The position numbers and the translations under genes were made by a program. From contig CALJEI010000006.1 of NCBI GenBank assembly GCA_938074605.1, forward strand, positions 1 to 64,000: a stretch of DNA of 64,000 nt. The letters are read 5' to 3'. This DNA is from an uncultured Ignisphaera sp. Its GTDB lineage: Archaea > Thermoproteota > Thermoprotei_A > Sulfolobales > Ignisphaeraceae. Positions 14,473 to 37,922 of this stretch are shown in pieces (within the stretch, counting starts at the first letter, position 1; each line of letters opens with the position of its first letter). The notes below the pieces were generated by a model. It worked only from the letters and a program-made list of their open reading frames with translations, made no database searches and was not told where the DNA came from.

Positions 14473-16284
14473 CTACTCGATATAGAAGTATTGCCCTAGA
14501 GTTTTCTGCAGTCTGTCAAGATAACTATCAGGCTTATTTATCCTTGGCCTTCCACTATCAGGATCCCTTCTAACAGTTACATCCATAGATTTTAAAAAGC
14601 TGTTCAAGGCTTTAGCAACAGAATTAGGTGCACTTCCATAGCCTTCTCTACCAGGTATTCCATTAAATACCATTAGTCTGTCTACAGAGTAGTCGATAAG
14701 TAGAAAGTTGTGGTCTATAACAAATATTGGAGTTTTCTTTAATCTTGCAATCCTCTTTATTACTCTTGCTACTGAGAGCTGATCCTCTACATCGATGTGG
14801 GATGACGGCTCATCTAAGAGATATATATCGGCATCCCTCACTAGTGTATAGGCTATATAGAATTTTTGAAGTTCACCACCACTTAGAGAATCAAGTTCTT
14901 TACTCAATAATCTATCTATACCCAGCCTTTTAACAATCTCTACATATAGCCAGCTATCCTCCTTTATAGCATCACTATTTACACTCTTTAGACACTCTCC
15001 AACACTACTACAGCCCTCTACTACCCTCTCAAGGTATTGCGGCTTGTAGCTCATCCTAAATGCTATAGACGTAGTGTAACCAGCATCAGGCTTTAGCTCA
15101 CCTACAAGAATTCTAATAAATGTTGTTTTGCCTATGGCGTTAGGACCAACTATACCTACTACCTCACCCCTATATGCCTGTCCAGACTCAACGGTTAGTG
15201 TAAATCCATCTAATCTCTTTACTAGATTGTCCCACATAAATATAACTTCACTAGATTTTGCAATATATCTATCCTCTCTAGCTTCATGTAGTCTAAAGCT
15301 AATCTCCTCATTCCTAATCCTCATATTTTCTGAAGGTAGAAATCCCTTTAGATAATGGTCTATACCGGCCTTAGCTGTATAGACCTTTGAGAACATACCA
15401 TATGATCCAGGGATGCCAAAGGCTATAGCTATGAGATCTGCTATATAGTCTAAAAACATTAGGTCATGGTCTACAATAAATATATAGCTACCCCTAGGCA
15501 ATAGCCTATCTAGTGCCATTAGCACATTCAATCTCTCTCTAATATCCAAAAAACTTGTTGGTTCATCAAACAAATATACATTAGCATCCCTGAGAAGAGC
15601 AGCAGAAATTGCAAGTTTCTGAAGCTCACCTCCACTCAACATGGAGATATCCTTATCCCTAATAGACTCCATATTTAGAGCATCAATCACTTCTCTATAC
15701 ATCCCTCTCTCATCAATTTGCTTAAGCACCTCATCTACACTACCCCTCTTTATATATCTGGGTATAAGTTCAATATATTGGATTTTTTGGACAATTCTTA
15801 GCTGACCCTGGTACAGCTTATTGAAATAGTCATAGTATATAGTGCCTCTAAATTTCTCTAAAACCCTCTCCTTAGAGGGCTCTCTATCAAATTGCCCTAT
15901 ATTTGGTATAAGAGATCCTGAAAGAATCTTCATGGCGGTTGATTTGCCGATACCATTAGGCCCTAGAATACCGATGATTTTGCTTTCAATAGGCATTGGA
16001 AGGCCATATAGCTTAAAGGCGTTTTGCCCATACCTATGGATGAGATTCTCCTCCACCTCCTCTGGAAGATTTACAACACTTATAGCTCTATAGGGGCATT
16101 TTTTTACACAAATTCCACAGGCTATACACCTCTCTTCGTAGATTATTGGTTTCCCCTTTTTCTCTTCACTAAGCTCAATAGCCTTATATGGCTTGGTCTT
16201 ATTAATGGGGCAAAATCTTATACAGGGAATACCGCATTTATCTGGACGACACATTTCATAGTCTATTGTAGCTACTCTAGCCAT
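14473..16284 (-). CDS. ABCE1/RLI ribosome-recycling ATPase
   Basis: A 603-residue iron-sulfur ABC protein that splits ribosomes after termination together with aRF1 or Pelota. The N-terminal ferredoxin-like domain has two cysteine clusters (CRPDKCGIPCIRFC near 12-25 and CIACGICVKKC near 53-63). Two nucleotide-binding domains follow: Walker A GPNGIGKST and signature LSGGELQKLAI with DEPTSFLD, then Walker A GPNAIGKTT and signature LSGGELQKFYI with DEPSSHID. The hinge region is present and the length is typical. A GGGTGTTA ribosome site precedes the ATG. Upstream on the same strand are the Glu/Trp mini-ORF, a Cgi121-like gene, a MoaD-like gene and rps17e. Confidence 0.97.
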   Translation of the reverse strand: MARVATIDYEMCRPDKCGIPCIRFCPINKTKPYKAIELSEEKKGKPIIYEERCIACGICVKKCPYRAISVVNLPEEVEENLIHRYGQNAFKLYGLPMPIESKIIGILGPNGIGKSTAMKILSGSLIPNIGQFDREPSKERVLEKFRGTIYYDYFNKLYQGQLRIVQKIQYIELIPRYIKRGSVDEVLKQIDERGMYREVIDALNMESIRDKDISMLSGGELQKLAISAALLRDANVYLFDEPTSFLDIRERLNVLMALDRLLPRGSYIFIVDHDLMFLDYIADLIAIAFGIPGSYGMFSKVYTAKAGIDHYLKGFLPSENMRIRNEEISFRLHEAREDRYIAKSSEVIFMWDNLVKRLDGFTLTVESGQAYRGEVVGIVGPNAIGKTTFIRILVGELKPDAGYTTSIAFRMSYKPQYLERVVEGCSSVGECLKSVNSDAIKEDSWLYVEIVKRLGIDRLLSKELDSLSGGELQKFYIAYTLVRDADIYLLDEPSSHIDVEDQLSVARVIKRIARLKKTPIFVIDHNFLLIDYSVDRLMVFNGIPGREGYGSAPNSVAKALNSFLKSMDVTVRRDPDSGRPRINKPDSYLDRLQKTLGQYFYIE

Positions 16285-16352
16285 GGAGTAACACCCAGAA
16301 GTTTAACTAAATTTCTAAAAAACATTGATTTATTTAGATATCTTGGTTACCT

Positions 16353-16433
16353 CTACCACTCTTCTTCTTCCCATTCCTCTTCTTCTTCCCACCATTCTTC
16401 TTCCTCTTCTTCCCATTCTTCCTCTAAGAGCAT
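16353..16433 (-). CDS. Putative 26-aa Glu/Trp-only microprotein
   Basis: The minus strand from ATG 16433 reads MLL followed by 23 residues that are only glutamate and tryptophan (pattern EEE W EEEEEE WW EEEEE W EEEE W), then TAG at 16353. A clear ribosome site, GAGGTG, lies six bases before the ATG, like the sites of the housekeeping genes here. The DNA is a purine-rich GAAGAG tract, so repeat expansion could produce such a frame. However, the start, ribosome site, tryptophan-spaced pattern and stop all fit a translated mini-gene. It sits between the Cgi121-like gene and ABCE1. I know of no matching family. Confidence 0.4.
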   Translation of the reverse strand: MLLEEEWEEEEEEWWEEEEEWEEEEW

Positions 16434-16517
16434 TGTTGGCACCTCACGCCCTAAAGCTTTACAGCAGAGGGTTATTAAACATAACTTTCTTTACAATCTC
16501 TAAAAACAATATATTGA

Positions 16518-17057
16518 CTACTCTATTAAAATACTATTGCAGCCTGAGACTCCTAAGAGAATTTTATCCAAGTTTTTCTCAAGCCCCTTAACACTACTCT
16601 CTTTAAACTGTCTAAAGACTCCTAGTACCTCAGCTATATGAGTGGATCTTTTAAGTAGCTCGTCCCAGTCTATATATACACAGCTGTAGCTCTTAACGAT
16701 ATTCTCTATTATTCCAATAATTCTATTTAGATCCTTATCATTTTCTCTAGATCGGCTGTGCACTATAACTATATGTCTATCATCATACAGCTTTTGGGTT
16801 ATGGTATTTAGTATTGTTGATATTTGTCTTTCACTAAAAAGTCTCACCATATGCTCTAACTCCATCCTTCTAGCAATATTTCTACCTCTATTAAATGCAG
16901 TATAGGATGTGAGAAATGCTACTACATGGCTTTGCCACGGCATTTTGTATAGCGATGTAGCAAAACATGTTATATCAATACCGTCTTTAGCTAATCTACT
17001 GGTTAACTCTAGACAGATTTCATTGTATCTATTGGAGCTACAGTGTATAGGTATCAA
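16518..17057 (-). CDS. KEOPS complex Cgi121-like subunit
   Basis: A 179-residue protein whose middle segment, AFNRGRNIARRMELEHMVRLFSERQIS (residues about 56-82), matches the Cgi121 core (A..GRNIAR..ELE...Y....RQI). Cgi121 is the KEOPS subunit that recruits the tRNA 3' CCA end during N6-threonylcarbamoyladenosine synthesis. The N-terminal strand pattern and HIVIVHSRSREND strand are also compatible. The C-terminal third (from about 125) is divergent. It follows the MoaD-like gene by five bases. The TTG start is uncertain. The assignment rests on one conserved block. Confidence 0.65.
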   Translation of the reverse strand: MIPIHCSSNRYNEICLELTSRLAKDGIDITCFATSLYKMPWQSHVVAFLTSYTAFNRGRNIARRMELEHMVRLFSERQISTILNTITQKLYDDRHIVIVHSRSRENDKDLNRIIGIIENIVKSYSCVYIDWDELLKRSTHIAEVLGVFRQFKESSVKGLEKNLDKILLGVSGCNSILIE

Positions 17058-17062
17058 GAGTA

Positions 17063-17356
17063 TCAGGCAAGCCCACCATGTGTAATCGGTACTAGTAGAA
17101 CTTCATCATCTTCATCAATGTAGAGCTCATCAATATTGTCAAAGACGTTGATGTCAATACCGTTAACAAGCACCATTACATCGTAGCTAGGGGCACCATC
17201 CTCACTTATTACACTGCTTAAAGCTCTAAACTTTTCTCTCAACTCTTTTAATAGAAGTTTTATGGAGATTCTTCTATCCAGTGGAATATCTATATACGAT
17301 GCTCCTATATCCACTTTAAATCTTCCTAGGAACCTTACCCTAGCTATATTCTCCAC
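17063..17356 (-). CDS. MoaD/ThiS/Urm1-like ubiquitin-fold protein
   Basis: A 97-residue beta-grasp protein: RVRFLGRFKVDIGASYIDIPL, the helix SIKLLLKELREKF, MVLVNGIDI and EDDEVLLVPITHGG are the usual MoaD strands. Such proteins carry sulfur as a C-terminal thiocarboxylate for molybdopterin or tRNA thiolation, and in archaea also modify proteins (SAMP/Urm1). The protein ends HGGLA, so the Gly-Gly is followed by two residues instead of being terminal. The GTG start abuts the S17e stop codon, implying translational coupling, and the Cgi121-like gene follows. A tRNA-linked role fits the context but is unproven. Confidence 0.8.
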   Translation of the reverse strand: MENIARVRFLGRFKVDIGASYIDIPLDRRISIKLLLKELREKFRALSSVISEDGAPSYDVMVLVNGIDINVFDNIDELYIDEDDEVLLVPITHGGLA

Positions 17357-17575
17357 CTATCCCTCCTGACCTTCTTCACCAACACCACTCTTCTGAATCT
17401 TAAGTAGATGAGTTATATAACCAGCTATTTGATTTCTCAACTTCTTTGAATTCACTATAACAAGTTTCTTTACCAGCTCTTTATTCTGTTGAAAATCTTC
17501 TGAAAACAGATCTGGATGGCTAGATAACAGTCTACGTGCAGTTCTCTTAACTAGCCCTATTCTTACCTTACCCAT
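17357..17575 (-). CDS. rps17e: 30S ribosomal protein S17e
   Basis: A 72-residue ribosomal protein with the S17e signature MGKVRIGLVKRTARRLL...FSEDFQQNKELV and KKLRNQIAGYITHLL. It belongs to the archaeal/eukaryotic small subunit. The length is normal for archaea. The C-terminus ends in a short acidic, glycine-rich tail (SGVGEEGQEG). It is the first gene of a minus-strand unit with the MoaD-like and Cgi121-like genes, and is divergent from the thermosome gene. Confidence 0.95.
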   Translation of the reverse strand: MGKVRIGLVKRTARRLLSSHPDLFSEDFQQNKELVKKLVIVNSKKLRNQIAGYITHLLKIQKSGVGEEGQEG

Positions 17576-37470: not shown

Positions 37471-37607
37471 CATGCAGTTAAGTAAACTGATAAATAAATC
37501 TAACATTTTTAGAATTCTAGCCCTTATATCTATAGTTTAATGCATTTTGTATTTTAATTTATAAGGGTTTTTAGCATCTAGCAATTATTTAGCAAGAGGT
37601 TATGTAT

Positions 37608-37922
37608 ATGTCATATGGATGGGAGGCTAGATGGGTTAGAAGAAAGTTTAAGATGGCTGAAGGTATAGAGGTTGAAACATGCTACGATATTACATCAAGT
37701 CTTATTCTCTGTCCACTTTGTGTCAATATTTCAAAGATATGTCCAAGTGTGAATGAGCCATCAACAACACTAGTATCTGGTGCTACATACTTTTTCTCAC
37801 CTGAAGATCTATTTCACCATATGCGTGCACATGCTAGAATGAGTGAATGGAGTCGGGCCTATATTGTAAGTGAGGAAGAGGAGGAAGCAGCTGAAGAAGA
37901 GGAAGAAGATTTAGCTACATAG
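37608..37922 (+). CDS. Small C2H2-like zinc-binding protein with acidic tail
   Basis: About 104 residues. CPLC near the middle, then, after a long loop, SPEDLFHHMRAHARM supplies a C2H2-style His-x4-His helix, suggesting one zinc-binding module. The last 25 residues are almost entirely Glu/Ala/Asp. ATG 37608 (MSYGW) is chosen because a GAGGT ribosome site is seven bases upstream; ATG 37602 would be too close. Its stop overlaps the end of the convergent aglB by 12 bases. Function unknown. Confidence 0.65.
   Translation: MSYGWEARWVRRKFKMAEGIEVETCYDITSSLILCPLCVNISKICPSVNEPSTTLVSGATYFFSPEDLFHHMRAHARMSEWSRAYIVSEEEEEAAEEEEEDLAT

Follow-up and report, generated by a model that had tools for sequence, protein, structure and literature searches.

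A microprotein of glutamate and tryptophan encoded beside ABCE1 in archaea, with a possible link to ribosome recycling

An overlooked microprotein gene in which nearly every codon specifies glutamate or tryptophan (the E/W gene) is strongly conserved across much of an archaeal phylum, and its product probably works with the translation machinery. We hold it as close to certain that the locus is a real, translated gene whose product acts in trans. It is described here from a 64,000-nucleotide stretch of DNA (the window). The source is an Ignisphaera-like crenarchaeon; its ABCE1 is 86% identical to that of the closest named relative, Ignisphaera sp. SKYB63 (L004), which has the same E/W core with the initial MLL changed to VLL. 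An ABCE1 scan of genome contigs gave one archaeal relative only.

The E/W gene and its neighbors

Read on the minus strand, positions 16433..16353 consist of an ATG, 25 codons and a TAG stop, and translate as MLLEEEWEEEEEEWWEEEEEWEEEEW; the gene (16353..16433) is called from this translation and from purifying selection at the codon level. A preliminary description of this DNA gave the coordinates and composition of the 26-codon Glu/Trp ORF correctly but left the strand unstated (the plus-strand reading of 16353-16433 is LPLFFF...). It also placed a GAGGTG six bases before the ATG and the ORF just upstream of ABCE1. Both are there: the Shine-Dalgarno sequence is at 16440..16445 on the minus strand, ending 6 nt before the ATG, and ABCE1 starts 68 nt after the ORF stop. 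The 26-residue product has no Cys and no Lys or Arg, and ends in EEEEW. Could such a monotonous frame be accidental? In a pattern search of the host's 1.63-Mb genome the motif TGGGARGARGARGAR occurs at the E/W locus only, and a double-motif pattern is found in 125 of the phylum's 398 genomes, compared with 2 of the 398 when the pattern is reversed as a control. The ORF is therefore real, far beyond chance.

The minus-strand gene order is eS17-like, MoaD/Urm1-like, Cgi121-like, E/W ORF, ABCE1. ABCE1 (Rli1), the 603-residue ribosome splitting factor (14473..16284, minus strand), was identified from its ORF and orthologs and is the dominant conserved neighbor. On the upstream side lies a 179-residue protein (16518..17057, minus strand), probably the KEOPS subunit Cgi121 (NCBIfam NF011465, E=1.4e-6, below the curated cut-off); a gene of similar size occupies the same place in many relatives. 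It is followed by a small MoaD/Urm1-like protein (17063..17356, minus strand; weak Pfam Urm1/ThiS match) and by what we take to be an eS17-like ribosomal protein (17357..17575, minus strand), which recurs beside the E/W gene in relatives. It is of note that the window holds a 106-residue ORF elsewhere (37602-37922, plus strand) with a EEEEEAAEEEEE tail over a GAGGAAGAA repeat, adjoining an oligosaccharyltransferase-like gene.

Selection on the coding frame

The cleanest test of selection used loci located by ABCE1 alone, in 16 genomes of the source's family. At all 16 an E/W ORF ends 54-176 nt upstream of ABCE1 and keeps the core EEEW(E)nWWEEEEEW(E)nW. Among 2705 codon pairs there were 963 third-position differences as against 82 at position 1 and 54 at position 2 (0.356, 0.030 and 0.020 per site, respectively), while the flanking DNA is saturated (p-distance 0.54-0.60, with many gaps). 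Length changes in the Glu runs involve whole codons, the first residue ahead of the core varies (Leu, Phe, Tyr or Arg), and the other replacements are only Glu/Trp mismatches (13 pairs, which stem from one divergent member aligned across a length change). Judged from this codon pattern, the ORF is a coding sequence under strong purifying selection. The suggestion that it encodes a microprotein thus has strong support from the conserved frame, the Trp positions and the silent changes: the Glu/Trp mini-ORF that had been sought beside ABCE1 in relatives, with Trp positions kept despite silent changes, is present at all 16 loci, and frameshifting indels of the repeat, named beforehand as grounds for refutation, were not seen among the 16 family genomes.

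A wider ABCE1-anchored set comprised 76 loci having at least 11 Asp/Glu among the last 18 residues plus one aromatic; it was partly retrieved via the E/W pattern and so is less independent than the 16-genome test. Lys, Arg and His together make up 1 of its 1368 residues, and the last residue is Trp in 71 of 76. Lys and Arg are absent although their AAR and AGR codons are no less rich in purines than GAR, which argues that the peptide is selected and not a purine tract. That the core, almost entirely purine with spaced T, is a non-coding polypurine DNA or RNA element merely resembling an ORF has accordingly a negligible chance of being right, given the codon-position bias, the lack of purine-only Lys/Arg codons, and the f11 relatives, which encode Asp and Phe with pyrimidine-containing codons.

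Distribution across the phylum

'Order' and 'family' (f1, f2 and so on) are used as arbitrary labels for genome groups, and since families are non-independent lineages the figures below are counts, not probabilities. A single-motif match is found in all 18 genomes of the source's family, although in one of them (G012, where a full ABCE1 was not found) the sole match, L018, is not an E/W mini-ORF. At least one such match occurs in 167 of the 197 genomes of the order. Because single matches can be due to chance, clusters were used after the order-wide search. By printed coordinates, a same-strand E/W gene lies within 1.2 kb upstream of ABCE1 in 80 genomes, representing 24 of the 39 families with a match; the gaps at these loci are often 40-130 nt, and the synteny extends to families with ABCE1 identities of only 42-50%. 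Variants ending in EEEEW, such as EDEEEDEWPEDEEEDEWPEDEDEDFEEEEW, are found upstream of ABCE1 even in some genomes without a strict-pattern match. The E/W relatives consist almost purely of Glu and aromatic residues, usually end in ...EEEW-COOH, and have Shine-Dalgarno-like sites in 114 of 124 cases.

Is the gene always upstream of ABCE1? In 15 genomes the two are divergently oriented within 3 kb of each other; for instance, much of f9 has the E/W gene inverted with respect to ABCE1 yet still next to the S17e gene and to a neighbor the size of Cgi121. Copies unlinked to ABCE1 are found in f3, f4, f5 and one genus of f11. Flipped and unlinked copies retain the frame, the terminator and usually the C-terminal Trp. 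Relocated E/W genes have no consistent replacement neighbor, those seen including NfeD, a metallo-beta-lactamase, MoeA, RadA and oxidoreductases; unlinked copies from other classes may be paralogs or the result of convergence. Finally, ABCE1 is present without a detectable E/W gene in f15, f22 and f51, so the gene is dispensable for ABCE1 as such.

Several arrangements deserve separate mention. In a number of classes (L249, L250, L252, L253, L258) a TFS/RPB9-like zinc ribbon of about 100 residues sits between the E/W gene and ABCE1, which suggests that an E/W - Zn ribbon - ABCE1 cluster is ancestral. E/W tails are also fused to zinc-ribbon or larger proteins (L238:1314-1569, minus strand; L248:1326-1608, plus; L293:1296-2102, plus), and in one case the tail is on a LysW-like zinc ribbon (L247:1287-1563, minus strand; NCBIfam E=6.4e-7, below the cut-off). 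Most f23 E/W proteins (L229-L234) have a basic N-terminus, e.g. MSRRKTPPK, and an internal WEDWGEEEE that recalls the end of LysW. In f35 and f37 (L296, L298, L300) E/W ORFs adjoin proteins with AbrB (MazE-like) and, at one locus, PhoU domains; these E/W genes may have a different function or be paralogs. A viral origin was considered and rejected: the DNA pattern matches 58 IMG/VR stretches, of which most lie in long unrelated ORFs or in other frames, and only L312 and L333 resemble stand-alone E/W mini-ORFs. Several other IMG/VR contigs (L311, L314, L316, L319 among them) carry long viral ORFs with many WEEE or DWDAYDEE repeats, in length unlike the mini-ORF.

An independent short gene

The preliminary description also raised the possibility of a translated leader tuning ABCE1. 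A location upstream of ABCE1 is what such a cis-acting leader peptide or attenuator would have, and a T-run between the two genes is a regular feature of the family: a T6 run at 16317..16322 (minus strand) is, from the sequence and family comparison, the putative poly-U terminator of the E/W gene, and runs of T5 or more occur in 16 of 16 family E/W-ABCE1 gaps (shuffle mean 2.8, maximum 8). U-tracts set the efficiency of archaeal termination (PMC8716108). To which gene does the T-run belong? At inverted loci a T5+ run follows the E/W stop within 100 nt in all 11 cases but precedes ABCE1 in only 1 of 10, and at unlinked loci of other classes it follows the E/W gene in 16 of 18. Because the T-run stays with the E/W gene and not with ABCE1, the former is an independent short gene, and we reject a leader role as its general function. 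The gene is kept when divergent (15 genomes) or unlinked (many copies). Neither the constant same-strand upstream place nor the terminator within the ABCE1 leader region expected of an attenuator is found, and we regard this explanation as very improbable.

The E/W gene may also have its own promoter. The best promoter-like match is a TATA/BRE-like element, AGTTATGTTTAATAA, at 16472..16486 (minus strand), -62 from the first Glu codon, and TATA-like words cluster -70 to -50 upstream of the Glu core in the 16 family members; we infer that this is the putative E/W promoter.

Possible function and partner

Spacing between Trp residues is centered on 5 and WW pairs are frequent. The strongest Trp periodicity is near 75 degrees, with no signal at 100 degrees (z=-1.1), which rules out a single-faced amphipathic helix. 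With some 75% Glu the peptide is probably disordered at neutral pH, and conservation of the C-terminal Trp points to a free end that is recognized. With Trp spaced near 5 and no helical face, the peptide looks like a disordered, multivalent acid-Trp ligand, and contact with a basic surface, as first suggested, is plausible.

What might it bind? The best explanation, in our judgment, is an independent microprotein gene whose trans-acting product docks on a translation factor, most likely ABCE1 or the 30S-ABCE1 complex; we advance this tentatively, as a reading just short of evenly balanced. A highly acidic disordered chain would display Trp at intervals of about five residues, together with a free Trp at its C-terminus, and these side chains could dock multivalently into basic-rimmed hydrophobic pockets of the factor. 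The likeliest target would be ABCE1, alone or on the recycled 30S subunit, in the fashion of the eIF3j N-terminus, and the peptide would then act as an accessory factor in ribosome recycling or re-initiation. An accessory peptide of ABCE1 or of the post-splitting 30S complex is favored because of the eIF3j analogy and because ABCE1 is the recurrent neighbor. In eIF3j, Trp52 of an acidic motif occupies a hydrophobic pocket on the RRM of eIF3b, and the acids around it add affinity (PMC2824034); yeast eIF3j/Hcr1 binds ABCE1 directly and acts jointly with it during termination and recycling, and its loss is suppressed by extra ABCE1 (PMC5737393). The yeast N-terminus, MSWDDE..DSWDAE..QSWDAEEEE, has three SWD repeats (sequence of PDB 7a1g).

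These proposals differ in strength. That the partner lies within the recycling machinery has not quite an equal chance of being right or wrong. An eIF3j-like docking on ABCE1 itself is somewhat unlikely, and a phylum-wide recycling cofactor docking on ABCE1 as a functional and perhaps ancestral equivalent of the eIF3j Trp-acidic N-terminus is distinctly so. Comparison of E/W-positive with E/W-negative ABCE1s gave no clear docking site from conservation, and net charge did not discriminate between them. Two positions differ, although both are confounded by phylogeny: W445 (window numbering), which is Trp in 90% of E/W-positive and almost none of E/W-negative proteins, and R84.

Could ABCE1 instead be a mere operon neighbor? 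The peptide might be a generic acidic chaperone or nucleic-acid mimic that shields a very basic client, such as a chromatin protein or a ribosomal protein like eS17, until assembly. Its extreme acidity and stacking-capable indoles, the translation-related neighbors eS17, Cgi121 and ABCE1, and retention of the gene after relocation beside unrelated genes would all fit, but the recurrence of ABCE1 as neighbor in 24 families and the C-terminal Trp in the wider set would be left unexplained. We consider this rather unlikely. More improbable is a mimic of the ribosomal stalk tail that competes for ABCE1 or translational GTPases by means of an acidic run and a bulky hydrophobic C-terminus. Archaeal stalk (aP1) tails are indeed acidic, flexible and hydrophobic at the C-terminus and recruit translation factors, and the conserved ...EEEW-COOH end would suit such a role; a sequence relation is absent, however, and the Trp repeats run along the whole chain and not just its end.

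Docking on a recycling factor, if true, would give a testable archaeal link between ribosome recycling and initiation. In archaea eIF3j is not known. The E/W genes sit in a blind spot: they are shorter than gene callers usually accept, low-complexity masking hides them, and they yield no tryptic peptides. Trypsin/Lys-C proteomics as used on Saccharolobus 30S subunits (PMC11698992) is unlikely to detect them since the ORF has no Lys or Arg. An RNA atlas of S. acidocaldarius includes 95 putative small protein genes (PMC12817955).

Comparison with known systems

The E/W ORF has no Pfam or NCBIfam match at E<=1, a 37-residue relative has no PDB match at E<=10, and EEEEWEEEE was not found in a limited literature collection; no family in the searched libraries resembles a near two-letter protein kept phylum-wide under strong selection. 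The acidic Trp-containing C-terminus (EDWGE) of the LysW/ArgW amino-group carrier proteins offers a likeness, as does the L247 tail, but the E/W ORF has neither zinc-binding CxxC pairs nor an EDWGE end. Like the tail of aP1, it is an acidic chain with a hydrophobic C-terminus; it is, however, a separate gene of 26 codons with internal Trp repeats and without the N-terminal dimerization domain. Binding of the stalk to EF1A is the subject of PMC6791870. Acidic transcription activation domains also set aromatic residues in an acidic disordered chain, with fuzzy, multivalent binding (PMC8137143, PMC10550315), but their context is eukaryotic transcription and they have no fixed C-terminal Trp. With eIF3j/Hcr1 the peptide shares Trp spaced in Asp/Glu runs, as in the acidic N-terminal motif, and eIF3j is tied to ABCE1 and recycling (PMC2824034, PMC5737393). 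This is resemblance only, with no eIF3j homology or further domains in the 26-residue E/W chain: the eIF3j motif sits in a 265-residue protein with further domains and few Trp, whereas the E/W peptide is free-standing and ends in Trp. As far as sequence comparison goes, the E/W protein family is categorically new, and its binding principle has precedents.
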